Below, one piece after another: positions 1-64,000 of a stretch of DNA of 64,000 nucleotides. Every line of letters starts with the position of its first letter. Position 1 is the stretch's first letter. Under the pieces are notes generated by a model. It was given only the letters and a program-made list of their open reading frames with translations, did not search any database and had not been told where the DNA came from. The stretch comes from Spongilla lacustris (Eukaryota > Porifera > Demospongiae > Spongillida > Spongillidae), in NCBI GenBank assembly GCA_949361645.1, contig OX442426.1, forward strand, positions 3,840,673 through 3,904,672. Reading direction: 5' to 3'. Made by a program: the position numbers and the translations under genes.

Positions 1-2707
1 AGTAATAATATGTATTACCATTACCATCTCATTGCAAGGTTGTATGCATGGCCAGTGCAATAGTCACATGACCCAATCCTTGGTGACATTGAATCCCCCT
101 TAGAAGGGATTTGCTGTTACCTGCAGGTAAGTACGAATCTATCTATATTCACTTTTAAGGTTATTGCTATGGGTATAAATGAATCCCTCGAAAGATTGAT
201 TTATTATATTGAGCTGAGTGTGCAAACAATCACAAACAACACCCTAGTAGCTGGTGTAATCAAACAGTGATTAGCAGGAAGTTAATTGGAGCAGATTCTG
301 TAGAGCTGTATTGTATACCATGATGAGTGTTTCCACTTACATGTATTTTAATGAAACTGAAGCATTTACCGTTTAGGTCACCAACTGATTTTCCTATCAT
401 ATTACGTATTGGTATAGGATAGATTCTTCAATGTCTGGATCTCAGAAAATAAAACGATGTCCGTTTGAGAGAGAAACATCTTTAGAAATGGGTCTAATTA
501 AACATTTTCCATTCTTGGCTTTCTAGGAGGACCCCTCCCCTTTCATCTTCATTTGGTTTAGGTGGTTCTAAACTAAGCATTTTGAATTTCACTATACTCT
601 ACCAAGCATTGGTTGGCGAATGTTAATATTTGCGCAGCTTGTGATACTGAGCAGTAATCATTGGATTTCCTCTGACGATGGTTGAATTTGTTGGACTTAT
701 TGTTTTGGCAGTCTTGTGCTCATTTCATGTTTATTGTAGGACTTTTGTCTGCACCTTATTACTAGGTTTTCTTCTAGGTCTGTGATGTCTACAAGGCATT
801 CTGATCATTTAAATCCACAGAGGTGTTCCTTGTGAATGAAAGAGATATGCGATGTATTGGGACAAGTACATCATTTCATATCTTAGGCGGATCCAGGGTG
901 GTGCACAGGAGTATTAATGAAGGGAGGGGCATGGTAAATTATAAGCGCATTAACTGCTTATACATGTATACAGCCTCATGAGTGCTAGTTAATATCAGTT
1001 GGATTGTCAGAGAATTTAGATGCTGAAAATAGTTATTGTGAAATGTGTGTGATGAAGCATCATTATAAAGTGCATGCATTCAAGAGAACCATTTGTCTAG
1101 GGTGCTTCCTTATAAGCATGTTCAATAACAACAGCATAATCAATCTTAATGTCACAGTGGAACTGCATTGCTGCAATTATTTCAATACTTTTTGACCCAT
1201 TGTGGATTGTAAGTAGGACTTGGGATGCTTCAGGCCACTAAAGCTTTATTTACTCGAACTTATGGACTAAACAAGTACACCGATATATGCATTCATTCTT
1301 AGCGCTCTAACTAAGTAATCTGGTTAGCAAATGTATAAAGATCTTCCAAGTTATATGGAGGATTGAAATCGCTTAAATAGTGCTGCTTTAACAATTTGAC
1401 TGCTCACTCTCACGTGGCAAAACACATGGGTTGGCTGTTAGATTGGTCAGAAAGTAGGTCCACATCTGTAGCTAGCGGTACTTATGTGACACCTTTCCCC
1501 ACACTTTTTTTACTTCGAACTGATATGAACTTCAAAGCCCTATGAGTGTAATTTTGGATTTATATGTACATGTATAGCTCCAAGCGTTCACCTGAAAATG
1601 TCAGTTTTAGAGTTTGTGTTATTGATGTATTTTAATCATAGGTTGCATGTTGTGGGTTTACAAAATACACAAACCACCCGAGCGGATAATAAATTCTTCC
1701 AATTATTCTGCCCAGTTACCCTTAGCTCCTTCTCTGTCATACTCAAATGTTGTACAAGCTAGGACATAGCCATAATAGCCATAGGGCATCTCTCATGGTG
1801 ATGCAAAGTAGAATTTTGCACCTGCATATCACTCAGTGAAAGGGAAGATTTAACCACTATTCTAGAATTATAATAGTGCTGCTTTCTAATTCCGTTAATA
1901 TACGCGTCTTTCTTGATTGATAATATTATTAAGTATGACACCAACAAGGGGCATGGCTTCGTGCTTGTATAGCAGCTACTCTCAAACCCAGCATGCATCC
2001 ATTTGGGTAATCGTCCACTGTCTTCCAAATTGTACATATCAATTAAATAATAAATTTAATGCCCAGAATGGAAGCCTCTATGCACCTTAATCTACTTAGG
2101 GCCTTATTTACAAAACTGATCTCGCAACTGAACTTTATATGTTGGGTCAATAATAAATTTGCTGCCAGTAGCTCATTGGGCTTCTTTGATCCAAGAAACC
2201 GGATGGCCCATCCTCTGCACAAAATAAAGGGGCCATCAATGGTGCAAATATAACTGGAAAACTTATCAGGTGAAAGAATGGACTAAGTGGTGAAATGTTT
2301 CTCTGAAAGTGCATATCCATCACAGTTTTCCCAAGTACGCCTCCCCTGAAGGATTAGGGGGTTTCAAAGGTACACGAAATTATAACTTGAACTGCTGTAA
2401 TGGCTCATCCCACTTCTAGTATACTGATATCAATATATCACGATAATGAATACTTTTCCTTATATACGGAAATTCCAGTAATGCAGCAGCAGTGGCAGTT
2501 TTAGCCTTTATAGTGCTAAGTGTATTACAGGCTATCACTTTTAGTGAATACAACTCCATCACCAAAATTGAAATGGTGCATGGCTGTTGAAATTGTTAAT
2601 TGGTTTAAATTTAAAGGAATGTATTTATCAGTTATAACATATGCAAAAGTGGAATACATTCATAGAATAAGATACATATAGAGCAATTATACAAATGTGA
2701 AAACCTA
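1..2707. other. No recognisable gene
   Basis: AT-rich sequence with only short unsupported open frames. No protein family, RNA gene, terminal repeat or clear tandem repeat could be recognised. Three TACATGTA octamers occur near 341, 962 and 1566. Confidence 0.6.
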
Positions 2708-4971
2708 TTATAAGAAATCATCGCCTGGACCATCCTTACAGCCTGCACACCTTGCTAGCAGAGCTCTAGCATTTGCCCTCACCATAGTTATGCTAAGATT
2801 TCCATAAAGTTGGGTGATAGCCTGGGATTTGGAACAACGCAGCTGACAAGCTAGACGTGATCCAAGCCGAGATAGAGTTTGCCTGGCTTCCGATCCCCAA
2901 CACCCATAGAGTTCTACTGCAAGGGGGATACAAACCCAATCAACTCATTGCACTTGGGGTCATTTGCAACATGCTTTCTCTGTTCTGCTGCATATGCTGC
3001 AGACCCAGCTGTCACACTCGCTTAGGAAATTATTTCAGCATTGAGCGGTAATGTGACAGTAAGGTCAGGTGCAACTGGTTTGCCTAATGACCAGTTAGGA
3101 ATCAGAACATCAGCTGGTCGTGTCCTGCTCTTCTCCGATCCCCATCCACTTCCCATCTCTACTTGACAGCCAACATGTGCCAGGTGACAATACTCTACTA
3201 AAACATCCATTAATCTGTTGTGGCGTGTAACCACATCATCACCATGTTTGCATGTCAGGGAGTGATGGCCAAGGTGGTCCAGTGAATGGTTAGGGCAATA
3301 CACACAAGTAGATCCTTCTGAGACACCAATGCCTAACCACCACTTCAAAGCAATTTGAAATTCATTGGGCTCAAGGTGGGAATGTGATCCAGGTGAGGGT
3401 ATTATAGATAACCAAGCTGAAGCATGGGGTTTATTATATAGAGTGTAGACGAGCTTTATCAGGCATGGAGGCAGAGTTATACAGTTCCATGAACTGATGG
3501 TCTTCGAGCTTGGAAGACAGAACTTTTTGCCCATGCGCACTGAGTCTGTGATGTCAATGGCTGAGATGGAGTCAGATGTAGAAAGGATGGCATTATAAAG
3601 CTGGATTGAATGATTGAGTTGCCGATCATCTGTAAATCCCTGGCCAGATGCACTCAACGAGGCTATGTAAGCAGCCGAGGAATGATGTGACAAGGAACGA
3701 AGGTCTAGTCCTCCCCTGCTGAGACTTAACTGGGCCTGTAACCATGCCTTGTCTGTTGTGTCAATAGAGGTACATTCTGAAAAGCATTGGCAGACGTCAT
3801 CATCATACCCCTTCAATGCTTCTGCTACCAAGGATGGAGGTGTGGATCGGGCTAAATGGACCAGTTTGCTGAAGGTGCCACACTGCCGTAGAAGAAGCAA
3901 GCCCACTTGTAGGTCAACAGCTCCAACTTCCTCAAGATGGGTAAGCAGCTTACCAGCATTTTCCCACTTCTGAGCCACAAAATTAGCGCAGAAGTTGTCA
4001 TCACCAATAGGGGCACCAAGGATCTCGATATTTGGTACACTGGACCTCTTCATGTCTGGAGGGAATGTGCTGAGATCACTCGTGCTAAAAAGCTCACACT
4101 TTGATGTGTTGAGGAACAGACCCAAAGGTGGTCCTTGGGTATGTAGGATGGAGATGACCTGCTTCACTGCTTGTGAGGGTCCAGCCACAACACCGTCATC
4201 TATGTACCAAGAATGAAATTTTAGGCCGTTGTAGGTAGGGTCCACTCCAATGATAGATATAATCCTCTGCAGCACCAAACAAAAAAGGAGAGGACCTAGG
4301 GGATCACCCTGCTGAACACCCATCTCTGAGGTGATGATACCCATTTGGTGGAACAGAACTGGGTGTTGCCCATAACACCAGTTAGCCCATGGTTCCAGCT
4401 CTGGAAAGTGGACACTACTACATTCATCAAGAACAGCCTGGCGGGAAACCATGTTAAAGGCATTGTGCAAATCAATCTTTAGTGCCACAATGTCTTCTTC
4501 AACCCAATGCTCTTCTATGCAACGCCTTAAACCATGAATGATCTTTTCTGCTCCAGAAGGGCAGGCAACTCCCAGCTGGTGTGGAGAGAAGAAGTCAGAA
4601 GCCTTTGACTTGGTGATGATACATAGACATTTGCTGGTGAGACGACGTAGTGCTTCACCTACTGCTATGGGCTGAATGTCATGAGTGGAGCCCTGTTTGT
4701 TTTTGTCCAATGCACTAAGGTTGGCCCCTGCCATGAACTTAGCAACCTGATTAGGTACCTTACCAGCTGCCAAGAGATTAACTACATCTCTCAGAGAAGC
4801 ACAGATGGGGGAAGGTAGAGTAAACATGGCTGCATCTAACAAGTGCTGTATTCGTAAGCCTGTAGGGCCACAGGCAGTTGCTTTAGGGAAGGATGTTAGT
4901 GTGGCCATTATGTTGAAATCAGGTGGTAGTACCTCACCTGTTGGTATGGTGATGGATGGAGGAGTAGGAAA
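2708..4971 (-). pseudogene. Non-LTR retrotransposon RT plus restriction-like endonuclease, decayed
   Basis: A 628-residue open frame (4908 to 3022) encodes a reverse transcriptase. It has a CGPTGLR entry motif, a QQGDPLGPLLF box and a YIDDG catalytic box (YxDD type, both Asp present). The C-terminus has a CxxC...H...H zinc-binding cluster followed by a conserved R-P-A-D-V-L-I-P stretch, as expected of a PD-(D/E)xK-like restriction-like endonuclease in R2-type elements. The frame stays open about 21 codons upstream of the first Met, so the true N-terminus is missing or 5'-truncated. An in-frame TAA at 3022-3024 interrupts the conserved tail. Similar-looking coding continues downstream after one frame change and ends at a stop at 2708-2710. 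The exact clade is not assigned. No poly-A tail or target-site duplication was identified. Confidence 0.8.
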
Positions 4972-43466: not shown

Positions 43467-44822
43467 TCAGATTGTACACTCTACAGGTCCTTTGGAACTT
43501 GGACCGAAATTGTCAAGCTCTAATTCCTTTCTCTGGACCCATGGTGCTATATCCATGTAGCGGAGATTGGAGAATTGGATTGAGGATTCGATGATGCATG
43601 TAGAGCAGGGACATTGTTCGTTCGCATTTTTGTTGACGAAGTAAACTAAACAGATCGACCAGCGATAATGCGTGTGTTTGCCGGTGACTATGGCAAGGAG
43701 GTGCTCTGAAAGTGTTGAACCAACATTAGACACAATTGTTTTCATCTTCTTATCAGCCCATCCAAGAGCATAGAAGGGTATACCATTTTCAGCCTGAGTC
43801 TCCAATAAGCAAAAATCCCCCCGAGCTGGTACTGCTTCATCTTCCTGACCTTTTCCCCAAGACTGTAAGTATGCAAGTGGATATTCTTTATGTGCTGTCT
43901 TTACCATACCCATGAAGTACAGTCCCCTTTCTTGTAAGGCCAAGAGGGTCTTCACTGAGAAGAAGGCAGAATCAGCATGCACCACACGGCCACTACCATA
44001 GTATTCCTTGGTTAGGCGAAGAGTTACTGCTGTTCCCTCCCCATACTGTTGGAAATAGTCCTTTTTTTCTGTTGGCTTCTTATCTCTAACTTCAGAATGA
44101 TGCCTGTGTCATCACAAGCAAGTGATTTGATTTCAGTACCCACTCCTTTAGGTTTGCGAGGCAGCTTTGTCTTATGAGGCATACCGTCCACAACATATTC
44201 ACCATCAGCTCCTTTCCAAGAATTCATACATTCATCAACAACTAAGTGACATCCAGGAATGATATGCTTTTTTCGTGTAAGGTTGAAATCATCTATGAAG
44301 CATCTGATGCTTTTCCATGGATCCTAAAAACATTGCATGCTATCAACATTCTATACAACTTTGTATAATTACTTACATCAGTGCAGGTACCTTCAACATG
44401 AGGTGGAACAAAACTTAAGCACTTCAGTATATCTTGGAAGCGATGTCTAGTCATCCCATAATGACCAAAGTCTGCACCTTTGAACACACTTCCAGGTTCA
44501 CTTCCAGTTTTCCAGTACACATGAATAGGAACCCGTTTAGGTTCACAAGCCATAGCAAGCCTCAATCCAAGAAATTTTAAAAACTCACCCTTGTCAAGGT
44601 GACTCAATCCATTTGCATTCATGTTGATGTTGGTACACTGCAACATGCTATCGAGTCCACACATGGGATGTAACAAAGTAAAATAGTTGTAAGCTGTCTT
44701 TGGTTGACTCTCTTGTACTTTGGTTGACTCTCTTGTACATGTGACCACCTCACATGAGGAATGGAATTATAACGCCCTCCAGCTGAGGGATCAATGAGCA
44801 AAGATTCTCGCCATTTCCACAT
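43467..44822 (-). pseudogene. piggyBac-type transposase, DDE part
   Basis: Open segments 44822-44377 and 44323-43467 are separated by a 53-bp intron (44376-44324, GTAAGT to TTTTTAG). The N-terminal side reads WRESLLIDPSAGGRYNS and GEFLKFLGLRLAMACEPK, typical of the DDE_Tnp_1_7 family. DEFCM-like ECMNSWKGADGEYVVDGMPH and VHADSAFF give the first two acidic contexts. A frameshift lies near 44090. The C-terminal region with the third catalytic Asp and the Cys-rich end was not found before the left terminal repeat, so the copy is defective. Confidence 0.8.
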
Positions 44823-46406
44823 GCACTATCACGTCTCCCTTGTGTGCAGTGTGGAAGAAGTGAACACTTCACTAATGATGACATAGTAAATGTTTTGGCA
44901 GTGGACATTAGGAGATCTCTTGGTGGTCACAACCCTGAAGAGATTCATAGATTGCAACTAGAGGACAACATTATTGGGCCTGTATTACGTGCTGTGGAAA
45001 AAAATGAAAAGCCTCTACCGGCACAAATCAAAACCATGTGCCCTGAAAGCAGAAGACTTTTTCAGCAGTTTGATCAGCTGAAAATAAAAGATAGCCAACT
45101 CTATCGAAGGTTTCATGACCCAAAGGATCCAAGGGAAAGTGGAGAGCATCTTCAGCTTGTTGTTCCCAATGTTCTAAAGAAGGACCTACTTCAAGAGTTG
45201 CATGCTGGGGTTGCTAGTGGACACCTTGGAGAAGAGAAGACTATGTCACGGTTAAGAGAGAGGTTCTATTGGCCTGGCCAGTGGAATGCTGTACAAGACT
45301 GGTGTCGAACATGTGCAGTGTGTGCAACAAGAAAGACTAAAGCTCCAAAGGCAAGAGCTCCACTACAGACAATCACAGCTAGCTATCCAATGCAAATCAT
45401 TGCCATGGATATTTTGGGACCCCTACCTGAAAGTGAATCAGGGAATAAATATGTGTTGGTTATCGGTGATTACTTCACCCGTTGGATGGAAGCGTATCCT
45501 ATTCATAATCAAGAAGCAGTGGCCGTAGCAAGGAAACTCACAAATGAGTGGTTCTTTCGCTTTTCATTGCCTGAGCAGCTGCACACAGACCAGGGCAAAC
45601 AATTTGAGTCCGAGCTGATAGCTGAGATTTGCAGACTACTTAGGATTCAGAAGTCCCACACTACAGCTTATCACCCACAGTGCAATGGTCTCATTGAACG
45701 TTTCAACCGTACACTTTTGGACATGCTTTCAACTGCCATCAAGGACCACCACTTTGATTGGGAAGATTGTATTAGACCAGCATGTATGGCCTATAACACC
45801 AGTGTGCAATCCAGTACAGGTTATACACCATTTTTTTTGACATTTGGTCGTGAAGCCAAGATACCAGCAGACATCATGTTTGGTAGCAGTAACAATGCAG
45901 ATGTGTCCACTAGTACTTTTGCTGCAGAGCTCCGATCCAGGCTAAGTGAAGCATTTTCATAGGCAAGGGAAAATACTGCTGTAAGGCATGAGAGGCAGAA
46001 AGAATTTTATGACGAGAAGGTACATGGGAAACCATTTGCAGTTGGTGAGTTGGTATGGCTGCACTCTCCAGCAGTTCCACGAGGAAAGCCAAAAAAGTTT
46101 CACCATCCTTGGTCTGGCCCTTACAAGGTGATAAAGGTTTTGTCAACTGTGAACTACAGAATTCAGAGCGTGAATGGAAGAAAACGTTATGTAGTGCACT
46201 TTGACCGTCTTAAGAAGTGTAACCCTGATACACGTTTTGCTTCTAAGAACACTGAACCACAGGTACCAAAGACTAAAGACCCCATTCAGGTTGAACCTTG
46301 TGGTACACACCTTCATATCCCTGATTATGATGATGATGTCCCTGCACCACCTGCAATGGAACGAAGATATCCTGCACGTGAACATCGTCCACCTGCTAGG
46401 TACTGA
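44823..46406 (+). pseudogene. Gypsy integrase, one nonsense codon
   Basis: The 5' part holds the HHCC module (LHAGVASGHLGEEKTMSRLR and CRTCAVCATRK). The core has IIAMDILGPLPES (first Asp), LHTDQGKQFESELI (second Asp) and YHPQCNGLIERFNR (Glu), so all three catalytic residues are visible. A TAG at 45961-45963 breaks the frame, which otherwise continues (VRHERQKEFYDEKV, GPYKVIK, a GPY-type C-terminal domain) to the basic tail REHRPPARY. Apart from the single stop this integrase reads intact. Confidence 0.88.
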
Positions 46407-47294: not shown

Positions 47295-48100
47295 TCTAGT
47301 GTAAGCTTAAAGCATACAGGAAGCAACGTGGTTTTCAATATAGCCATGTAAGTAGAGGGCACCCTCTCCCTTTTTAAACAGAGAGAGCCGTAAGTGGACA
47401 GCATCCCCCCTCCCCCCACTGGTTGAATTGGCCTAAAGCGGATAACACCCCCCCCCCCCCACACACACACACACACTGGTTGAATCGACCTAAAGTGGAC
47501 AACACCCCAGTTTTCATATGTAAACCCCCTGGGCCCTGGCATGGTAGCTGAGATAAGGCTGGTACAGGTGGCCATGGCTGAGATGAGGCTGGTACCGGTG
47601 GCTGAGATGAGGCTGTGACTGGTGTCAGAGTGTCTGAGATGAGGCTGGTACAGGTGGCCATGGCTTTGATGAGGCTGGTACAGGTGGCCATGGCTGAGAT
47701 GAGGCTGGTACAGGTACATGTGTAGCTGAGATGAGGCTGGTACAGTTGGCTGAGATGAGGCTGGTTCTGGGGTTGGGAATGGGATTGATACGGAAGAGTA
47801 TACTATATTAATAGCTAACAGCACAAAGACAAACTTTGAGTAAGACATAAGTCCAGCAGTTGCTCTCCATTGTGAAAGAACAACTGCTGTTAATGCATTG
47901 GCCCACCTAACGTGGCGGCAATACCACAGTAGGCTAGTAACACACACACACCCGCATAGAGTACTTACTTTTAGTACGCTTGATCGCTGTCAAAAAAAAA
48001 AGTGGCTACAAGCCAATGCTATTAGTTATTAGTACCTTTCGTTCCCTTTACGAACCAACCTTTTTTTCTGATTTCCTATTGTCGCAGGCGTGGGGAATCG
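47295..48100. repeat. Low-complexity stretch: C/CA runs and a ~30-bp minisatellite
   Basis: A C-run followed by (AC)n lies at 47447-47476, inside two copies of a TGGTTGAAT-plus-CCTAAAG unit. From about 47540 to 47780 degenerate units of GAGATGAGGCTGGTACAGG repeat 7-8 times. Long frames on the minus strand here are repeat artefacts. The remainder to 48100 has no recognised feature. Confidence 0.7.
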
Positions 48101-48310
48101 CCGTAAGAAAAAATATGGCAAGTCTTGCCATGACTTGGCATGACTTGCCTGTGTTTTAACATGACATGGCAAGTCATGCTATGTCTTGCCATGACTTGGC
48201 ATGATTCCATCATGACATTTCTTACCATGATCCGTGTAAACATACTATTCCATGACATTCCAAGGTTTGCCAAGTCATTCCTTCATTTCAATACAGAAGT
48301 ACTGCATTTG
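48101..48310. repeat. Left subterminal repeats of the EnSpm element
   Basis: Repeated short motifs ATGGCAAGTC, TGCCATGACTTGGCATG and variants in both orientations, typical transposase-binding arrays of CACTA elements. Confidence 0.75.
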
Positions 48311-48503
48311 CATCAGAATAATATTATGGGCATATTACTGTAGTACATGAGCTAGGATCCACCATGCATGTACTCTTTTGGTGTTAGAATAGTACAAATA
48401 ACTGCGTGATTCAAATGACAGTGCAACATGCAGTAACATTTTACACAAAACACTAACACATGATTTCAACCAATGTTTAAAAAGACCAGTTGGCACAACA
48501 ACA

Positions 48504-51500
48504 CTAATTATGTTCAAACCTATTAGGCTGTCTAATAATGTATGAGTGCGTTCCATCAATATCAATTTTCATTGCTTTGGATATAATATTATGGATTGGT
48601 ACTGCTATGAATTCTTCATGTTCTCTCTGGATTTTCAACATGAATCTATGTTCTGTCAGTATATCAGCTTCTTTATACATCTCAAGGCGACCACGACAGG
48701 GTGGACCAGCATTCTTCAGTACTGATGTAAAGTCCATTTCATACAATAATACTTTAGGTGGTGATGTTCTTACAAATGATAAAATTTGTCTAAATTGTAT
48801 TTTATCATTATAAGCACAGCGAAAAGAGCAAAAACTGCTATTTCTTTTGCGATCCAACTTTGAGGAAGTGCAATAAATGATTCCATCCTTTAGTAACTGC
48901 GTGTATGTTACTATTTTTTCAGTTGAACTCCAATTCAGTATGTTGGCTTCTTCAGTTGTAGGAGTTTTAATCATTGGCTGACCTAACAAATAGGTGTGAG
49001 GTCCAATGTGTTCCATTTCATTACCATGATTATTACAACAATAATGTATAAACGATATAGTCATAGGACTCTCTTGCAATAAAACTTTGCTTTTTAGAAG
49101 CTGTAATGTTAGTGATGTATCAATGTTGTGTAGCAACTGTTTATGTATTATACTCTTGCCGTGTATATTGCGTTTTAAGTCTCCATTTTTACTTTCATAC
49201 CAAAAGCTGATTGTGTCCAAAAAGGGCTCCACAATCTAATGTATTTAGGTAAATGCAACAACATGTGTGCATTTGCTGTACAATTAGATTCTCCATAAAG
49301 TTCTGGAAGTAATACAATAAAATCTTTTAGCATCATCTCCGCAGCATCTAGCAAGGATGAATCTATTGATTCTTGTAGGAGGATGTGCATGGCACATACA
49401 AGTACAGTGGAAACCATCACACTTGCTCCTATAATTTTTTTGTACTGTTATTTTGTTCACTTGAATATATTTCAATAACAATGAGATCAAATGGAAATCT
49501 GACAACGCAGGTATAGTGTACAACTATTTTTCAATATATACTGAAAGTTAAAAAGCATCACGTGACTATTTACTTTTGTTATTAACACTTGTTGGGACCC
49601 CAGTACAAAAAAAATTGTGAACATAATTCCTCCTCCTGTAGGCAATAGATCTTGACCATATTCGCAATATATCTAAAGAACAAGCATTAGCAACCTTTGG
49701 CCGAGTCGGTTTTTAAGTCCGGTAAATAGTTACGGTATTATCGAGCTAGATATGCGTTTTTAGCTCGTAAAAGCTTAGCGATGCTATTTCGTAGTACGCT
49801 CTCACTGGACTGCTATATTTCGCTTCCGAGTCGTCACATGTTAGATCTATCGCGAAATCGTACTTGGGAGGCAATAGACCCTTCTTTGCCGTTAAAAAAG
49901 TGCCATCAGAGCTGAGTACCTGAAAACCTCCGCCATATCGCGATGAATTACATTTGAAACGTCATCATTTCGTCATTTTGTATCGTGAATATATTTATAA
50001 TGTGACGATAATACGAATGGATGCAAGGGATTGTGAAAATGGTTCTTAACCTAGCGATGCTGCATCTTGCAGCCACTCACGGCGAACGTTTAGTAAATCA
50101 GTAGCATCAAATTGGGAAGCTTTATGGACCATCAAGACATTCGCCAAGGCTAGCGTTCTATCACCCAAAGCTTCGAATCCTAGATGGCAGCTTCCAAATA
50201 GCTAATTGGGTACGCTTCCCTTCCAGCTTTAGAGTTGCCTCTTGCTTTTTGACGTTTCTTGTAACCTGCCCAATTTGATGCTATATCATCTCTGCCGATA
50301 CGTCACATTATAAATATATTCACGATACAAAATGATGCAATGATGACGTTTCAAATGTAATTCATCGCGATATGGCGGAGGTTTTCAGGTACTCAGCTCT
50401 GATGGCACTTTTTTAACGGCAAAGAAGGGTCTATTGCCTCCCAAGTACGATTTCGCGATAGATCTAACATGTGACGACTCGGAAGCGAAATATAGCAGTC
50501 CAGTGAGAGCGTACTACGAAATAGCATCGCTAAGCTTTTACGAGCTAAAAACGCATATCTAGCTCGATAATACCGTAACTATTTACCGGACTTAAAAACC
50601 GACTCGGCCAAAGGTTGCTAATGCTTGTTCTTTAGATATATTGCGAATATGGTCAAGATCTATTGCCTACAGGAGAAGGAATTATGCTCACAATTTTTTT
50701 TGTACTGGGGTCACAACAAGTGTTAATAACAAAAGTAAATAGTCACGTGATGCTTTTTAACTTTCAGTATATATTGAAAAATAGTTGTACACTATACCTG
50801 CCTTGTCAGATTTTCATTTGATCTCATTGTTATTGAAATATATTCAAGTGAACAAAATAACAGTACAAAAAAATTATAGGAGCAAGTGTGATGGTTTCCA
50901 CTGTAGTGCATAATGGTGAAGATAAAGAGATGGCAAATAGTCCAGAAGAAGTGGCAACGAATAAAATAGCAACCAATTTTTAAATTCTGATGCTTTCCAG
51001 AATTTCAAATGTTTTGCAATTGATCTAGGACAGCGTGAAAATTCATGCGGTGGATGCTGCTGCATAAGAACCCTGTCTATCGCAGCAGTGTTTCTGCCCA
51101 AATAGTATGGCTCCATATGATTAGATGACTCAAACCACAGGTTCATTAGCCTCTTTACCATACCCTCATACGCACAGTGCATATCATCAACTGGAATTCC
51201 ATCCACAAGGTTGATAGTATGGGCGAGAGGGGAAATTCCTGCAATGCCATTAACACTATTTCCAGTTGATTCTGCTATAGTTCCATCTTGAATTATCGTC
51301 TCATGGGTGCGAAGTGGATAGTCTCTAGGTAAATAGATCCTAGCTCCATTGGGAAGTCGCTTGCCAGGATGATAGCATATAGGGCAGCCAAATTCACCAT
51401 TAAATTGCTTAGTACATATAACTGGGCTTGGCAACTAAATCAAGTACACCGAACATCAGTTTTACTTTCATATGCATCTTTCCAGAAGATATTTGTGTTT

Positions 51501-53102
51501 CAAAACCATCTCTATAAAGATCTTCAAGAGTTTTTACCACTGGGTCCAGGAGTAACTTCATATCAGGTTTTCTTATCCCATACCACATTCCACACATAAC
51601 AATATTTTCAGCTTTGAATCGAATTGAGGGGGGAAGGTTAAGAACTTGTAACAGTACTGGCCAAAGGCTTATTTGATTGGATTTAAATAATGGTACACCA
51701 TCTGTAAATATGCTAAGAGCAAGGTTACTCTTTGTTTTAAAAAACTCACTCATCTTGAATTACACTACCAGTCCAAACATCAGATAGGGGATTTTTCCCC
51801 CTGTCAGAATAATATTCATCCAATGCTTCTATATTATCTGAAATAGGATTAACTCTTGTTATCAAAATAAAATGGCCATTTTCCATCCACTCAATTAATC
51901 AAGTGAACTTACTTGTAATCATTGATTGCAGATGCTTGATAAAAGGGATGTGGATCAAATGCCCTAGAGGTTCAGGCACTACACAGGTGCTGCATTGCTT
52001 TTGGCATTGTATGCCACAGATGGTGCAAACAGTGCAATGTTTGTAAGGAACACTGAATTGCTTAAAAAACTTTATAATCATATATTCACTCTTTGGAAGG
52101 CAATTAGGAGAAGGACAAAGCACGTGCAGTAACTTAGTCAAACCATTGATAGCCTTGTCAGATAGTTTAAATTTACGTGCATACAACATAATACAGTAAT
52201 ATGCTCCAGATTTAGTTATGCTTGCACCTTGATAGAGGGGTTCTAAATAATCTGCTTGCTGCATTGGGCATTCAAATGAAGTTTCAGTGTTGTCCTTCAT
52301 TTTCGGTCTGGTTCTCATTCTCATCAATATCACTGCTGGATGCTATTTCTGATTCACATTCAAAATTCAGTGGTGTATTTGGTGGCTCCTGTAGGCCTTC
52401 CTTTTCTACATCACTCTCAGACTCTGAAAACTCACTGACTTGCTGTCTGTACCATTATGTGACTCCTTCAGAATCAACTGTGTGAGGGAAGGAATAATAA
52501 ATAATAATGATTAGTGAAATAACTATACCTGGTTGGCAATCAAATGAGGTAGTGCAGGAGTTTACTTCAGAGATGTCATCTGTGAGTATGCAGTGAAGTT
52601 TACGTATCAGTAAGTAACATTTACAGATGCATTTACCTCTCACTTCCATAGTATAAGTATAATCACTAGAAGAGAGCATTATTTTACACAGCTTGTAGCC
52701 TGCCCGACCATATGTATCGCGTACAGGCCACTTATAATTATATGTACATGTATGTATACATGAAGGTCGGGCTACGCCCAAGTAATATATATACACGCCC
52801 TATGGTATAATGAAAAAATTTCGCCTACGCAAACCAATTGTATCATGTACCAAAGGACAAAACGTTCAGTTAAATCAGAAATTACATCTCGATAGCATAT
52901 GCGCCCTGTGTCAAGCACATAACGGTGATCGATCTGGCGCCGCGTGTATAAAAATGTATACATGCATGTATTAAATAGCTTACGAACGTTTCTTCGCACT
53001 CTGGCACCATTTCGTGCTTCTGGGTACAGGAATAGAAGCATCCCGAAAGTATGAACAGTAGCGACGATACTTTCTAACACGAGATCGAGAGCCCGTTTTC
53101 AT
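48504..53102 (-). pseudogene. Tnp2-type EnSpm transposase
   Basis: Probable start ATG at 53102 (MKTGSRSRVRKYRRYCS). An acidic linker precedes Cys-rich HCTVCTICGIQCQKQCSTC at about 52030. The catalytic region (51753-50906) reads DGVPLFKSNQISLWPV, GCPICYHPGKRLPNG and VDDMHCAYEGMVKRLMN, hallmarks of Tnp2-family transposases, then PPHEFSRCPRSIAKHLKFWK. After the nested foldback it resumes in frame with LVCAMHILLQESID and ESKNGDLKRNIHGKS and ends at 48504. Frameshifts near 52290, 51434 and 49190 and early stops near 52440 make it non-functional. Introns are likely near the start. Confidence 0.8.
49405..50903. mobile_element. 1499-bp foldback element in the transposase gene (TA TSD)
   Basis: Arms 49405-50007 and 50301-50903 are each 603 bp, reverse complements with only scattered differences, around a 293-bp centre without coding capacity. 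The ends are CAGTGGAAACCATCACACTT. TA flanks both sides (49403-49404 and 50904-50905), and removing the element with one TA restores the transposase frame (GCA CTA CTT GTA), proving the insertion. TA targets and CAGTG ends match those of the Tc1/mariner-like element at 16954. Confidence 0.92.
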
Positions 53103-53186
53103 CATCTCAGCGGGTTCCATGTTTGCATGTGAATATCAATATGAAAATGTAAATTTAAGAAATTTGACACGTGTCCATGAGGAGAT
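53103..53186. promoter_or_regulatory. Shared divergent promoter interval
   Basis: Only 84 bp separate the inferred start codons of the transposase (minus) and the BEN gene (plus). It is AT-rich and contains an E-box-like CACGTG variant (ACACGTGTCC). No TATA box was convincingly seen. The regulatory role is inferred from spacing. Confidence 0.4.
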
Positions 53187-55136
53187 ATGGCGGAGCAGAG
53201 AATGTATAAGAGAAATCGTGTTCCATCAAAGAAAGCCCAGGAAGGCAGGACTTTATCTGAAGAGCTGCTGGATCAAAACAGTACGTTTGTTTAGGTATTA
53301 CTATTAGCAGCTAGAAATAATAAGACGTGTTGATTGCGCACGCGACTTCACATGCGCATATGCATGTTGTAGTATTGTACATTTGTATATATACCAATCG
53401 AGCTTTTTAGTGACCTTATACACAGCCTAAGTGAATATATTGGTGCATGCGGTTGTAAGAAAACCCGCTGTATAGATTAGGTACAAGTATACACACGCTC
53501 TTACACAACTGCATGCATCGATCGATACATTCACTTAAGTTACAACCGCAAGCACCACGCATGCAATGCATGTACGCAATGCTAGCCGTTTGTAATTTTT
53601 TATGTATGTAACATATAGAGAAAGTCAAGCTAAAGTGCAGTCAGGAAGGAAAGATCTTTACTGCCAAAATCAGTGACCTTTCAAGAGAGGACATGCAGCC
53701 ACTCTCAAATGCTGACTTCCATAAAGGTTCTGCGCTTTTATGTGACATTGGTGGAAAGGCATACCCTGTCCAACTTATGGCATTTGATGGTAATGCATGC
53801 AGTTGCTGTAAAATATGAAATGTATATTAATCTACTCTCAAATTGGTTAAGATGCATCATCAAAACAGCCCAAAAGGAAGCAGGCACATAAGGCGGATTG
53901 TGGTCAGCTACCAGATGATAATGATGTAAATGCACACATATTAGCAATTCTAATATCTTGAAATTTTGTTTTATTTTCCAGCTCAACTCATCTGAACGTG
54001 ATGTGTGTGGCAAGAAAATGAGGATGGCAGATGAAAATATATGCACTGTAAGTAATATTTAGTAGCATCTGTAGTTGTTTGTGTGTTTTTTGTGTTTTTG
54101 TGCGTGTGTTTATCTGTAAGTAATAATTTAACAACTATTTCCATTAATAAATGTACCCAGGGTGCTGAAAGTTGTCATGTGGAAAAAAATAAGGTGCAGT
54201 GATTTGTTGCTACATGTAATCCATGGCAGGCACACCCCATAATGTCAAAACAGGACGAGGACAGTGGTTCAGAGTCATTGCAGACAAGTTCAGAGTCATT
54301 GCAGCCAAGTGCATGGGATTCAGAGTCATTGCAGGCAAGTATAATTAAAACCTTTTATTTTAAAGCTATTACTAATTTTGATGTAGATGTCTGATGCAGC
54401 TGTAAAGCAATGCCTACTGAAAGCAAAAGTGATTGTTATCAAAATAGAATTGCACTTCAAAAGTAGTGATTTCCTTTCTGCATGCATTTATAGGGTAAAG
54501 AGAAAGCGGAACTATTAAGTAACCACAGTGAAAAGGTAGAAATTGCATGTACAAGTGCTTCATTTATCAAGTATTATATTTTCTAGGAGCGGATCAGATT
54601 ACTTGGTGAGTTTATTTATTTTATATTTGTATGCATTCGTATAATGACACACGACCAGTTCAGATCTTCTATGCACGAGGTAAATGCTAAACTGGACAGG
54701 ATACTGGCTGTTATACAACCCCCAAAGTAAGGAGGTAGCTGAGTAAAGTTGGTATACCTTACATGCATGTACTTAGCACACCAGGCACCTCACAAGTGTT
54801 GAAAAGTGAACATTGCAGTGGATTGAAGCCGGTTTGTATGCGCATATTGTAGTGAAGAATTGCGCACTAATTGACCTATTTTACTCTGATTCAGAGCATC
54901 ATCAATGGAGTGGACATCACTCTTTTGCCCGCCGATAATATATACCTCTTTGGGCTCATGCTTCTCGATGTGTACTTCACCAAAGAAGAACTCTCAAAAA
55001 GTCTAATCTTTCCATCAACCAAAAGCAGCAAACCTGTGCTGGATCAAGCCAAGGTTCGCGCCATTGTTGGTAAGTTTTAACATTTTAAATTATCATGAAT
55101 AACATGTTTTAATATAGAGAGTTGATGAAACAATGA
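53187..55136 (+). CDS. BEN-domain protein, 11-exon model
   Basis: Exons 53187-53280, 53619-53789, 53852-53925, 53982-54047, 54161-54193, 54230-54334 (GC donor), 54494-54535, 54587-54726, 54777-54831, 54895-55069 and 55120-55136 sum to 972 nt, 323 residues plus stop, all phases agreeing. The N-terminus is basic. Residues about 33-88 (VKLKCSQEGKIFTAKISDL and on) look like a small beta-rich module. A basic KQPKRKQAHK may be a nuclear signal. SESLQ repeats follow. The C-terminus (FGLMLLDVYFTKEELSKS, SKPVLDQAKVRAIVGEL) fits a BEN domain, a DNA/chromatin-binding fold. No stop or frameshift was found. Exon 8 is read through a possible small intron and is the weakest link. Confidence 0.7.
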
Positions 55137-55274
55137 TTTCCACATGAGAATCTTAACATTAAAAAGTTTCAAGAAAAGGCCAATAACAAAATGTAGAGAC
55201 GCTAATAATTATGTACTTATTGTTTGATGTTTTGTATTTGTGTTAATCAGTTTGAATAATAAAGACATATCATA

Positions 55275-55474
55275 ATAAGCATGGTTTGTCATGGATTAGT
55301 AATGGATACCATTCCCGGTTATTCAGGCCTGATCAGGCCTATTTATGTCTCCATTGAATGCCATGTCATGGCATGCAATGCTAAGTCATGGCATGACACT
55401 ATGGCAAGTCATGCCATGACTTGGATCCAAGTCATGCCAAATCATGGCATGACATGCCATATTTTTTCTTAGGG
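55275..55474. repeat. Right subterminal repeats of the EnSpm element
   Basis: Copies of AAGTCATGGCATGAC, CATGCCATGACTTGG and related palindromes, ending with the terminal CTTAGGG. Partner of the array at 48101-48310. Confidence 0.75.
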
Positions 55475-56554
55475 CGCTTCTGTATCGAAGAGGTACGCTT
55501 AGACTAACCCGCATTCAAGGCCCGTAGCTTGCCGTCGAAACTTCACTACACCTCGTGGTTTGCAACACAAATAGAAAAAAGTTGTTTCTTTCCTAGCCTA
55601 GTGCGATTAGCCCATCGTTGTTTTTGAGTGAGCTCACGTTCCAAAGGTCTTCGGTTGTCAAGGTCGTTGTCAAGGGATGACATCATCATTTCAAACTTTT
55701 GGAAAACGAACCTCGTGTCCACAAAACATTGGGCCGCAAACACCTGTGCTATATTGGTGTAGTTAAGTTCAATTCTATAGCTAAATTAATTAACTTACTG
55801 TGCAATATATATATGGAACGTTCTATGAGATTTTGATGCTTGTGATTTTATATATATAGCATCCAATTCGAAGCACTATATCTTCCAAACGGTTTGCACT
55901 ATTGACTTCCTATTTTCAGCACTTCATACTACACCATTTCTCTATGCTAAAATACATTTTGGGGTCTTGCACTTACTCCGTGCCAGGATTGCAATGTCCG
56001 ATACCCCACCGGGTTCAAACCCGACATAACTTTCAGTAGGAGTAATCAAATCGCTTCAAATTCGGTTTGTAGGTAGGGAGGTCCTATACCTATTGATTTG
56101 TTCTGTTCGTTAATTTTCATGCCATCCGTTACGGAGAAACAGCTGTGCAAAGTAAATACACGTTTCCCGCTCGAATCGCGCCTTTATATATTCACGGAAC
56201 AGTTTCCATTCTCCGGAGCACATAATAGGGCGTGATAACCACACCCCAAACAAACGGGCGGCTGAATTGTAATGCTTGTTACGGTTGTTTTTCGGTGTAG
56301 ATAAACGATATGGGGTGACGTATAACACGAGTGAAGGCGAGCTCGTCGAGTTTCACTGAATCAGTCGGCGGATGAGTTCGAACTGTACGAATACGACGAT
56401 CGATATTCAAGCTTGATACATTGGACGAGGATGGAGAGATTGAGAAAGGTAGCGATGGCGGTCGTACCACTGACGATGGTAGTTGTGTTGGTGATAGGGA
56501 GTGAGCAGCCCCTAAAGTACCAAAGAGCCACCAGCCCCACCCCCACATAGCCAA
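55475..56554. other. No supported gene; CpG-richer stretch
   Basis: A minus-strand frame (55743-55546, FVFQKFEMMMSSLDNDLDNR and on) has an acceptor-like CACAG before it but no recognised domain. At 56300-56460 CpG density rises. A plus-strand frame there reads EYDDRYSSLIHW, then a hydrophobic AMAVVPLTMVVVLVIG segment, and stops at 56550. It could be a signal-anchor exon, but this is weak. Confidence 0.3.
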
Positions 56555-56563
56555 GGGGGTAAT

Positions 56564-58777
<2,214 letters not shown>

Positions 58778-58786
58778 GGGGGTAAT

Positions 58787-60181
58787 GGGGCTAGGCCCTT
58801 CACTGCAGTTCGCTCAGCAGCCCTGGGGCCAAAAAGGCCATCCCCACACAGCAGAACCACAAGCCCCCTCACTGCAAGTGCACACTATATACCTTTGGAA
58901 CCATTAAGCCCCATGCTGCAATTTAAATTAATAGCCTCACATTCCAAATAGTGGAGCCATCAAGTGGAATTAACAGGCCCCATAATTCCAGCAAGGGAGC
59001 CACCAGCTAACCTGGCCAATGGAGCTAGCATCCACAATGCCATTGGAGACACCAGTCCTCTCGCAAATAGATCATCAGACCCCTACACTGCCAGCAGGGA
59101 TGTGGCCCCCACAATAATGCCAATGGAGATGCCAGCCCTCAGGCTGCAAATGGAATCAGCATCCCCAACAATTTCAGGGGAGCCATGAACTACATGTACC
59201 AACAACACGTGATGACCTCACTACCAAATCAACCATTAGCCCTCACTCCGCAAGTGGTCTTAACAGGCCCCACACACTGGGACCAACCCCCCCCCCCCCC
59301 CCCCCCCCCCCCCGCACTACCTTTCTTTCAATGCAAGTTGAGTCAGCTGGGATCCCCCACACAGTAGAACCACCAGCCCCCCTCACCGCAAGCTCATGAA
59401 CAGTACCAGTGGAACCTGTAAAGTCTACACTGCAACTGAACCTAATACATAAAGCCTCACACTGCAGTCAGCAGCCCATGGAACCATTCTTACAGAACAC
59501 CCTCAGCTACCCAGGGCCAATGGGGTAGCATCCACAAAGTCAGTGAAGATGCCACCCCAAGTTGAGTCAGCAGCTCCTACACAAACAAGGGCCGATAGGG
59601 CCAGCCCCACACAGTAGAACCACCAGCTCCTCTCTGCTCACTTCAAATAGAGCCACTAGACCCTCTACCAGTACACGCTGCAAGTCCAGACAGCAGGCCA
59701 CACCAGTGGAGCCCTCTCACAGATGGAGCCCAGCAAGGAAGTACCAGCTGCCACACAACCAGTGGTCAATCGAGCCCCCAGAATAATGCCAGTGGAGAAA
59801 TCAGAATCGCACTGCAAATGGATTCAGCAACCCCAAAAATTTCAGGGGAGCCATGAACTACACGTAAATATACTAGAGGGAAAAAAAACCCACACATGCC
59901 CCCTTCAAACACTATAACAGAACAAGTGGAACTTTAAGCCCTCATAGTTAATACGTAGCAGTCCCCACAGCTCTCCCCCCCCCCCCCCCCCCCCCCCCTC
60001 CCTACTACCTGTCCTACAATGAAAGAGGGGCCAATCAGCCAATGGGACAGTACAACCACCAACCCTCTTCATTGGTCAGGGGACATGTACCATAAGAACA
60101 CATGCCGCCATCACTACCAGTTGAACCTCAATGCAAGTGGACTTAACAGGCCCACCACACACTGGTGCCAGCCCTCGCCCC

Positions 60182-60212
<31 letters not shown>

Positions 60213-63200
60213 AGTCCCCCTCTGCTCACTACCTGTCTGTCCTTCACTGCAAGTTGCGTCAGCAGTCCATGGGCCAATGGGGGCCGTAGAACTACCACTC
60301 CGCCTCACTGCAATCACACAGAACCTTTAGAACCAACCATTAACCACCATAATGCAAGTGAACCCAATACTACAAAACCTGACCCCCACACTGCCAGCAA
60401 GGGAGCACCAGCTGCCACATAACCAGAGGGTCAATGTGGCCCCCACTTAATGCCAGTGGAGAAGGCAGCCCTCACACTGCAAATGGAGTCAGTAGCCCCA
60501 ACAATTTCAGGGGACATGTGCATGTACGCACATGTACTAATGGAATCACACATGCCCCCTTCATACACTACCAATGGAACCAGTGGAACATTTAGCCCTC
60601 ACAGCAAGTGGACTTATTCCTTAGCAGCCCCCACAGCGCCCCCCCCCCCCCCCCCCCCACTACCTGTCCTTCACTGAAAGAGGGGGCTAATGGGACCATC
60701 CCCACACAATACAACTACCAGCCTTCCTCATTGCAAGCCAATGGAACCATTAACTCCCAAGCTGCAATTGAACTTAGTAACCTCACACTGCAAGTCCAGT
60801 CAAAAGCGCTGCACAACCAGTAGAGCCACCAGCCCTTCCACATATGGTGTTATCAGACCGTTCACTGCCAGCGGTCAATGGGGCCCCCATAATAATGCCC
60901 ATACTCTACAAATGGTTCCCTTTCATGTGTGGGTTACACTGGTAGTGAGGAGGCTTGTGACTTTGCTGACAGTGTGGGGTCTGCTAACTTCACTTGGAAA
61001 GAAAGCAAGGTGTGATGCATAATATTGTTGCCTTTATGGACTGTGCCTATGTGTGCAATTTACATGCAGTTGTATATTCCCCATGTTACTTTTATTACAT
61101 CTAAGATGTTACTTATTGCTACATGTACATAAAGCACTAGTTTCCAGCAAGAGGGTACATGTACATTTTAGAAAAGAAATGTACAACTCAAACCTTTTTG
61201 TATGCCTTGCTTGCCTATATAAACCAACTACCATGGGTGCAGACCACCCAAAATCAGTACTGATAGGGCAGGTAATGATATTCACCCACCAATAACAAGG
61301 CTTCACTAAACCTCAGATAAACAGATACACAATTGTGTGTACAGAAAACAGGTATACACATGAACACACTGCAAGGCAACTTCAGTAGTTGTGTTTCTAT
61401 TTGTTAGTGGCTCCAATGGGGACTGGTGATTTACACATAGTGTGGGGGCTAGTAGCTCCACTGGTAAATGATGGCTCGCCTAAAAGTGTCGGGGTGCCAA
61501 GTCCATATGCAGTTTGGGGGGGGGGGGGGGGGGGGGGGGGGGGCTCTGGACCATTGATTGTAAAGGACAGGATCTGGCCCCAGTGCTAATATAAGTCCAA
61601 TTGCAGTGAGGGCTAATGGTTCCACTGGTTCCATGTGTTGTGTTAGGAGCAGGGAATGTGTGGGTCCATTGGTACATCTAGTTCAGGGGGCTGGGGTCTC
61701 CACTGGCATTATTGTGGGGTGACTCCTGGTTATGTGGCAGCTGATGGCTGACTGGACTTGCAGTGTGTCTAGCGGCTCCATTTGAAGTGAGCAGAGAGGG
61801 GCTGGTGGTTGTCTGTGTGGAGCTGGCCCCTACAGGCCCCTGTTTGTGTGGGGGCTGCTGACTCAACTTGGGCACTGGCTTTGTGGAGGCTACCCCATCG
61901 GCCCTGGAATGGTTCCATAAGTTGTGCATGGGCTGCTGACTGCATGGACATGTGAGGCTATTAAGTTCAGTTGTAGGGAACACTTTACAGGTTCCACTGG
62001 TATTGTTCATGAGCTTGAGGTGAGGGGGCTGGTGGTGGCCCCTCAACTGCTGACTCAACTTACATGCAGCAATAGAAAGGTAGTGGGGGCGTGGGCTGGC
62101 CTCAATGCGTGGGACCTGCTAGGTCCACTTGCGGAGTGAGGGTTAATGGCTCATCTGGTAGTGAGAGCATGTGTTATCGATACATGTAGTTAGTGGCTCC
62201 CCTAAAATTGTTAGGGATGCCAACTCCATTTGCTGTGTGATGGCTGGCATCTCCACTGGCATTATTGTGGGGGCCAAATTTCTGCTAGCAGTGTGGGGGT
62301 ATGATAACTCTATTTGTGAGAAGGCTGGTAGCTCCAACGTTTGTGCAGAGGTTCCATTGGCTTGCAATGAGGAAGGCTGGTAGTTGTACTGTGTGAGGAA
62401 GGTCCCATTAGCCCCCTCTTTCAGTGAAGAACAGGTTGTGAGGGCTGCTAAGTAATACGTCCACTTGCTGTGAGGGCTAAAAGTTCCACTGCATGGTTCC
62501 ATTGGTGGGGCGTTATTCCATTGGTACATGTACATGTGCGTACATGCACATGTCCCCTGAAATTGTTGCATGGGGCTACTGACTCCATTTACAGTGTGAG
62601 GGCTGCCTTCTCCACTGGCATTAAGTGGGGGCCACATTGAACCTCTGGTTGTGTGGCAGCTGGTGCTCCCTTGCTGGCAGTGTGGGGGTCAGGTTTTGCA
62701 GTATTGAGTTCACTTGCAGTATGGGGGTTAATAGTTGGTTCCAGAGGTAGTGTGTGATTGCAGTGAGGCGGAGTGGTAGTTCTACGGCCCCCATTGGCCC
62801 ATGGACTGCTGACGCAACTTGCAGTGAAGGACAAGTAGTGAGCAGAGGGGGGCTGAGGGGGGGGGAGGAGGAGTGAGGGCTGGCACCAGTGTGTGGTGGG
62901 CCTGTTAAGTCCACTTGCATTGAGGTTCAACTGGTAGTGATGGCATGTGTTCTTGGTACATGTCCCCCCTGACCAATGAAGAGGGTTGGTGGTTGTACTG
63001 TCCCATTGGCTGATTGGCCCCTCTTTCATTGTAGGACAGGTAGTAGGGGGAGGGGGGGGGGTGGAGAGCTGTGGGGACTGCTACGTATTAACTATGAGGG
63101 CTTAAAGTTCCACTTGTTCTGTTATAGTGTTTGAAGGGGGCATGTGTGGGTTTTTTTTCCCTCAAGTATATTTACGTGTAGTTCATGGCTCCCCTGAAAT

Positions 63201-64000
63201 TTTTGGGGTTGCTGAATCCATTTGCAGTGCGATTCTGATTTCTCCACTGGCATTATTCTGGGGGCTCGATTGACCACTGGTTGTGTGGCAGCTGGTACTT
63301 CCTTGCTGGGCTCCATCTGTGAGAGGGCTCCACTGGTGTGGCCTGCTGTCTGGACTTGCAGCGTGTACTGGTAGAGGGTCTAGTGGCTCTATTTGAAGTG
63401 AGCAGAGAGGAGCTGGTGGTTCTACTGTGTGGGGCTGGCCCTATCGGCCCTTGTTTGTGTAGGAGCTGCTGACTCAACTTGGGGTGGCATCTTCACTGAC
63501 TTTGTGGATGCTACCCCATTGGCCCTGGGTAGCTGAGGGTGTTCTGTAAGAATGGTTCCATGGGCTGCTGACTGCAGTGTGAGGCTTTATGTATTAGGTT
63601 CAGTTGCAGTGTAGACTTTACAGGTTCCACTGGTACTGTTCATGAGCTTGCGGTGAGGGGGGCTGGTGGTTCTACTGTGTGGGGGGTCCCAGCTGACTCA
63701 ACTTGCATTGAAAGAAAGGTAGTGCGGGGGGGGGGGGGGGGGGGGGTTGGTTCCAGTGTGTGGGGCCTGTTAAGACCACTTGCGGAGTGAGGGCTAATGG
63801 TTGATCTGTTAGTGAGGTCATCACGTGTTGTTGGAACATGTAGTTCATGGCTCCCCTGAAATTGTTGGGGATGCTGATTCCATTTGCAGCCTGAGGGCTG
63901 GCATCTCCATTGGCATTATTGTGGGGGCCACATCCCTGCTGGCAGTGTAGGGGTCTGATGATCTATTTGCGAGAGGACTGGTGTCTCCAATGGCATTGTG
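58787..64000. repeat. Large inverted duplication of degenerate repeats, open at window end
   Basis: The plus strand at 59033-60000 pairs with the complement of 63035-64000 at about 99 percent identity; only a handful of differences were counted. The pairing continues inward with more indels and lower identity to about 60950 and 62050, around a centre of about 1.1 kb. The sequence is built from short degenerate modules (CTCACTGCAAGTGGA, AATGCCAGTGGAG, CAGTAGAACCACCAGC) with poly-C/poly-G runs. The right arm runs off the window. Pro-rich ORFs on both strands here are repeat products. Confidence 0.85.
59287..60660. repeat. Poly-C runs of the left arm
   Basis: C-runs of about 18-33 bases sit at 59287-59313, 59979-59998, 60189-60210 and 60640-60658. 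Mirror poly-G runs occur at 61516-61543 and 63726-63746. Run lengths differ between arms. Confidence 0.85.

Follow-up and report, generated by a model that had tools for sequence, protein, structure and literature searches.

In the maize transposon Spm/En, the subterminal repeats are recognised by TNPA, and both TNPA and TNPD are required for transposition (PMC2613891). In animals, the TRC elements of the CACTA superfamily, such as SmTRC1 and those of Aedes and Tribolium, have a Transposase_21 domain, CCC ends and 2-bp repeats (PMC1636069). In a stretch of 64,000 nucleotides from the freshwater sponge Spongilla lacustris (contig OX442426.1, positions 3,840,673 to 3,904,672; hereafter the window) we observed an element of this kind at 48101-55474, in which a Tnp2-type transposase gene is divergently paired with a gene for a BEN-domain protein. 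We describe here the evidence that the BEN gene belongs to the transposon, and we propose that its product probably acts at the element ends in the manner of TNPA.

The element is a complete transposon, with both ends and the flanking duplications present. Its inverted ends consist of CCC followed by TAAGAAAAAATATGG, the window copy reading CCG at the left and CCC at the right, and CCC was found at both ends in the copies L036, L037 and L070. A 2-bp target duplication flanks all four copies of which both ends were read (CG in the window, TG in L036, AG in L037 and TA in L070). The ends begin with CCCTAAG, CCCAAG or CCCGAG, and none of those read begins with CACTA, as the ends of plant CACTA elements sensu stricto do. 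The window transposase matches Transposase_21 (Tnp2, PF02992) with 58.7 bits for a cut-off of 28.6, and the transposase of a second family, F6, with 55.4 bits. Since the Transposase_21 domain, the CCC inverted ends and the 2-bp duplication are found together, the element is an animal TRC-type EnSpm/CACTA transposon, present here as a damaged two-gene copy. One difference from SmTRC1 is that the latter yields alternatively spliced products, with no BEN protein described in the available part of the source, whereas the sponge element has a separate divergent BEN gene. When we searched the 248.6-Mb assembly that includes the window for the end motif, allowing up to two mismatches, we obtained 15 matches (none with the reversed control) at seven dispersed loci, one of which is the window copy; six of the seven hold BEN-gene DNA, L041 being the exception. 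The first-pass annotation, made from the letters of the window, had called for such a search and had placed the gene inside an EnSpm/CACTA element, and this placement holds, the gene being common to other copies and to other EnSpm families.

The BEN gene starts at 53187 on the plus strand, 84 bp from the transposase ATG (53102-53100, minus strand), so that the divergent interval was correctly seen at first. A chain of 11 exons with agreeing phases also exists as announced, but it gives 285 residues instead of 323. Its junctions are predictions. A draft exon at 54587-54605 was dropped, the frame being broken by it, and so was an alternative exon at 54785-54831, with which stops arise and for which L036 and L037 lack the acceptor AG. 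The homologues found, where named, come from Ephydatia muelleri (eukprot entries with the prefix Em were taken as the same species), and 56-78% of the aligned residues of the window BEN domain are identical in P0001, P0002 and P0007. Of the predicted gene structure, exon 1 and the junction to the last exon recur in the gene model P0007, in which exon 1 is followed by BEN with none of the intervening exons.

Taken alone, the window BEN domain scores 13.2 bits against Pfam PF10523 (E 0.1), under the cut-off of 23.2, whereas L038 and L037, two copies of the same family (F1), reach 31.4 and 28.5 bits. In all six element families the top Pfam match is BEN, which exceeds the cut-off in three of them, F6 (25.6) and F7 (23.6) included; F2 (16.6), F3 (15.4) and F4 (21.1) stay below. 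The BEN-like C-terminus proposed earlier is therefore solidly assigned through the relatives' scores, the window copy by itself falling short, and the segment conforms to the BEN fold. It is preceded by a long helix of coiled-coil type, and fold evidence suggests that the N-terminal domain may be Tudor-like. As predicted from these features, the product would be a putative DNA-binding protein with, from N- to C-terminus, a Tudor-like domain, a coiled coil and the BEN domain. The animal BEN proteins BANP, BEND6, NACC1, Insv and Bsg25A are host regulators, and share 9-26% identity with it over the aligned residues.

Both ends of the element are crowded with the tetranucleotide CATG. The terminal 150 bp contain 8-11 CATG in three F1 copies, and 10 and 6 in F6, for a background mean of 1.0 per 150 bp; eight or more occur in 0.0011 of 20000 background windows, drawn from 16 loci together with the initial 48 kb of the window. 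We counted five CATG in F3 and three in F4/F5, where the ends were not reached, and CAAGTCTTG-type repeats are present in these families instead, which weakens CATG as a single universal site. The BEN domain of human NACC1 binds CATG (PMC11472053, PMC7764960), and BANP requires oligomerisation, partly via its coiled coil, to select unmethylated sites (PMC11472053). With a Tnp2 transposase, a second protein carrying a DNA-binding-type domain and an oligomerising-type helix, and short repeats at both ends, the element fits a TNPA-like scheme. The first-pass annotation had suggested an accessory role in transposition and, for a BEN-type gene that is part of the element and recurs in other copies and EnSpm families, this is the best reading. 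We consider it probable that the transposon encodes, in the BEN protein, an accessory factor of its own that binds the ends as TNPA does. Its BEN domain would bind the subterminal repeats (of CATG type in F1 and F6), the coiled coil would let several molecules bind and thereby bring the element ends together, and this would recruit or license the transposase, as TNPA does in maize Spm. A possible partner of the N-domain is chromatin or the transposase. The likeness to the TNPA-TNPD system, namely a transposase plus a second element protein and subterminal repeats (PMC2613891), is a functional analogy alone: TNPA arises by alternative splicing of one unit, whereas the sponge protein comes from a divergent gene and is a presumed end binder.

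The alternative that survives best, although we regard it as rather unlikely, is that the BEN protein stays outside the cutting complex and regulates a divergent promoter that both genes presumably share in 53103-53186, as a self-repressor or an anti-silencing factor, end binding being secondary. The divergence of the two genes over only 84 bp agrees with this, as do the Tudor-like N-domain and the fact that known BEN proteins are mainly chromatin or transcription factors (PMC11472053); moreover, TNPA itself reactivates a methylated promoter and represses an unmethylated one (PMC1636069). The dense repeats at both ends, kilobases away from the promoter, speak against it. An escape from silencing through the BEN protein, also raised at first, is a possible, putative function.

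We then asked how widely the gene pair occurs. Using the window protein in tblastn over the genome (E up to 1), we obtained 123 matches in 59 clusters. In 29 of these, the opposite strand carries a Transposase_21 match no more than 8 kb upstream; one further cluster has such a match upstream on the same strand, none has it downstream, and 29 are without any. Random placement gave a mean of 0.17 pairings and a maximum of 3 over 1000 trials, in a test that treats copies of the same family as independent, which they are not. The pairs fall into at least six families, which we named F1, F2, F3/F9, F5, F6 and F7/F8, and the BEN domains of the five other families are 37-52% identical to that of the window. 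Conversely, a BEN partner was found for 29 of 129 Tnp2 matches (150 of 163 candidates scored), and the rest may lack BEN or have one that is too distant. In a transposase tree, built with six of the 15 top Tnp2 loci after exclusion of nine near-duplicates by translation (L046-L051, L053, L056 and L057), a fully supported branch, at which long branches meet, separates six BEN-linked from six BEN-less transposases. F6 and F7 are paired in both the BEN and the transposase trees, the other forks being weakly resolved.

When families are compared with one another, divergence is greatest at third codon positions in 38 of 42 BEN pairs and in 20 of 20 N-domain pairs, the near-identical F2a-F2b, F4-F5 and F7-F8 (BEN) and F7-F8 (N-domain) being left aside. 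Synonymous divergence (dS) is mostly saturated between distant families; for F1 against the more distant copy L040 it is 0.77, for a nonsynonymous divergence (dN) of 0.14. Among close F1 copies, between which changes are few, dN exceeds dS in four of six pairs (dN and dS of 0.021 and 0.018 for the window with L036, 0.024 and 0.006 with L037, 0.031 and 0.006 with L038; 0.031 and 0.013 for L037-L038, 0.025 and 0.025 for L036-L038, 0.008 and 0.012 for L036-L037). The third-position excess and the F1-L040 values, set against those of the close copies, indicate selection on the transposon lineage that is not visible on the window copy. The BEN gene has been under long-term selection as a transposon gene and is no one-off cargo. 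That it descends from a host chromatin gene captured once and carried along as a functionless passenger is improbable: BEN is indeed also a host domain, and its general dispensability is suggested by the many Tnp2 matches beside which no BEN gene was detected, but a passenger would decay, whereas this gene is kept across families in one orientation and under between-family selection.

Some further BEN and EnSpm loci of the same genome were set apart. Five other BEN genes (L001-L005) have no Tnp2 match nearby; three of them (L002, L003 and L004) have equal scores at three places and L005 adjoins a Tc1-type transposase ORF (open reading frame), and they are possibly further mobile BEN genes. In L042, at 2564-4465, we found four tandem copies of BEN exon-3/4 DNA (82-85% identity), and no other part of the element was matched there. 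The BEN-less EnSpm locus L079 has, at 575-991 on the minus strand, an ORF of 138 residues divergent to a transposase of 1021 residues; it has no Pfam match and could be another accessory gene. For the BEN-less control element L079/L080 we looked for ends and found none. No relatives were confirmed in viral and genome contig collections.

Both genes of the window copy are damaged. Compared with the F6 transposase (an open frame of 631 residues in L070), the window transposase consists of four pieces and changes frame twice, its 3' end lying at about 48504; that of L038 is in two pieces. The N-terminus resembles, as judged by eye, Halichondria panicea P0069. The frameshifts and the 1.5-kb insertion described at first are real, the insertion (49409-50905) being absent from L038; it is a near-perfect palindrome with the appearance of a foldback element or a large element of MITE type (miniature inverted-repeat transposable element). 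L036, L037 and L039 share one internal deletion, from window position 48735 to 51800, by which most of the transposase is gone and BEN-gene DNA is kept. As the deletion is the same, we propose that these copies form a non-autonomous subgroup that moved or multiplied after the loss of the transposase.

To describe the BEN gene as open beside a broken transposase, as was done at first, is misleading. The window copy reads CAATGA where L036, L037 and L038 have CAACGA, and this TGA for CGA cuts off the end of the BEN domain. L040 also has the TGA, so that the stop is present in two of five copies. Past this site, L037 and L038 keep the frame as far as NNKCRDA, the usual end of BEN (...NNKCRDANNYVLIV), whereas L036 is out of frame about a dozen residues further on. 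Every F1 copy examined carries some damage: deletions in or at exons in L037 and L038, and a 6-nt loss and the late frame change in L036. The window differs from L036 at 16/821 exon and 59/1035 intron positions, from L037 at 15/802 and 40/1025, and from L038 at 20/799 and 35/1082. That the window gene now serves the host, kept open while the transposase died, is very improbable and not supported: an in-phase exon chain does remain beside the broken transposase, and from copy to copy the exons have diverged less than the introns, but the premature stop in BEN, a dN above dS against the three closest copies (few changes) and the position of the gene inside the ends of one of seven dispersed element loci all speak against it.

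So far, BEN domains have been seen in chromatin factors of hosts and in viruses. Bracovirus and poxvirus BEN genes are a parallel to the sponge gene in being carried by viral DNA; those of bracoviruses are described as virulence factors for which, unlike the sponge pair, no transposase partner is mentioned in the available text (PMC5704228). Fungal DNA transposons with a TET/JBP dioxygenase likewise carry a chromatin-type accessory gene, but this is an enzyme, in other hosts, and the available text does not mention a BEN domain (PMC12730594). In the literature searched, which leaves most subscription papers and probably the Repbase reports outside, we found no report of a DNA transposon with a BEN gene and no text naming both EnSpm and the BEN domain. 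If the BEN protein binds the ends, animal CACTA elements use a different fold for the task of TNPA, and the families offer a system for the co-evolution of end-binding proteins and subterminal repeats, with a bearing on the origin of BEN. Those with many near-identical copies make this end-binding model testable, for instance F6, in which nine BEN matches score practically alike in tblastn (42.2 bits for seven of them, 40.3 bits for the others). More tentatively, and with the chances somewhat against it, an animal CACTA lineage might own a BEN plus Tudor-like end-binding protein that has co-diversified with the transposase and the subterminal repeats, a TNPA analogue drawn from the chromatin-reader toolkit; host and viral BEN proteins would then possibly share ancestry with transposon end-binding factors.

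Table 1. Coordinates of the element, its genes and its repeats in the window.
Feature	Position	Strand	Basis
Whole element (TRC-type EnSpm/CACTA)	48101..55474	.	Inverted ends and copy boundaries; ends CC(C/G)TAAGAAAAAATATGG
Target-site duplication CG, left	48099..48100	.	Flanks read directly
Target-site duplication CG, right	55475..55476	.	Flanks read directly
Left subterminal region, 9 CATG in 150 bp	48101..48250	.	At least 9 in 0.0002 of 20000 background windows
Right subterminal region, 11 CATG in 150 bp	55325..55474	.	At least 10 absent from 20000 background windows
Tnp2-type transposase gene, disrupted by two frame changes and an insertion	48504..53102	-	Pfam PF02992; pieces compared with family F6
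Palindromic insertion inside transposase gene	49409..50905	.	605-nt arms, 99% complementary; L038 without insertion
Divergent intergenic interval, 84 bp	53103..53186	.	Conserved in L036, L037, L038
BEN-gene exon 1	53187..53280	+	In-phase chain; resembles start of E. muelleri P0007
Exon 2, Tudor-like N-domain (by fold)	53619..53789	+	
Exon 3 (linker)	53852..53925	+	In-phase chain
Exon 4 (linker)	53982..54047	+	In-phase chain
Exon 5 (linker)	54161..54193	+	In-phase chain
Exon 6 (linker, 22-nt repeats)	54230..54334	+	In-phase chain
Exon 7	54494..54535	+	In-phase chain
Exon 8, coiled-coil segment	54659..54726	+	In-phase chain; in-frame counterpart in L040
Exon 9, presumed 13-nt micro-exon	54819..54831	+	Phase and shared acceptor
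Exon 10, BEN domain	54895..55069	+	Profile matches of window copy and relatives
Exon 11, BEN end, cut by TGA at 55134-55136	55120..55136	+	Copy comparison

Directly to the left of the element, at 44787-46406 on the plus strand, lies an integrase ORF with H2C2 and rve domains, which we take to be of Ty3 type and which has a stop at 45960-45962. It is preceded, at 43467-44766 on the minus strand, by transposase pieces, of which the part that was scanned (43467-44108) matches DDE_Tnp_1_7 and is presumably of piggyBac type. In the region 56335-64000, a long GT/CA run is found near 57840-58020, and from about 59000 to the end of the window we observed mirrored repeat blocks with proline-rich frames.
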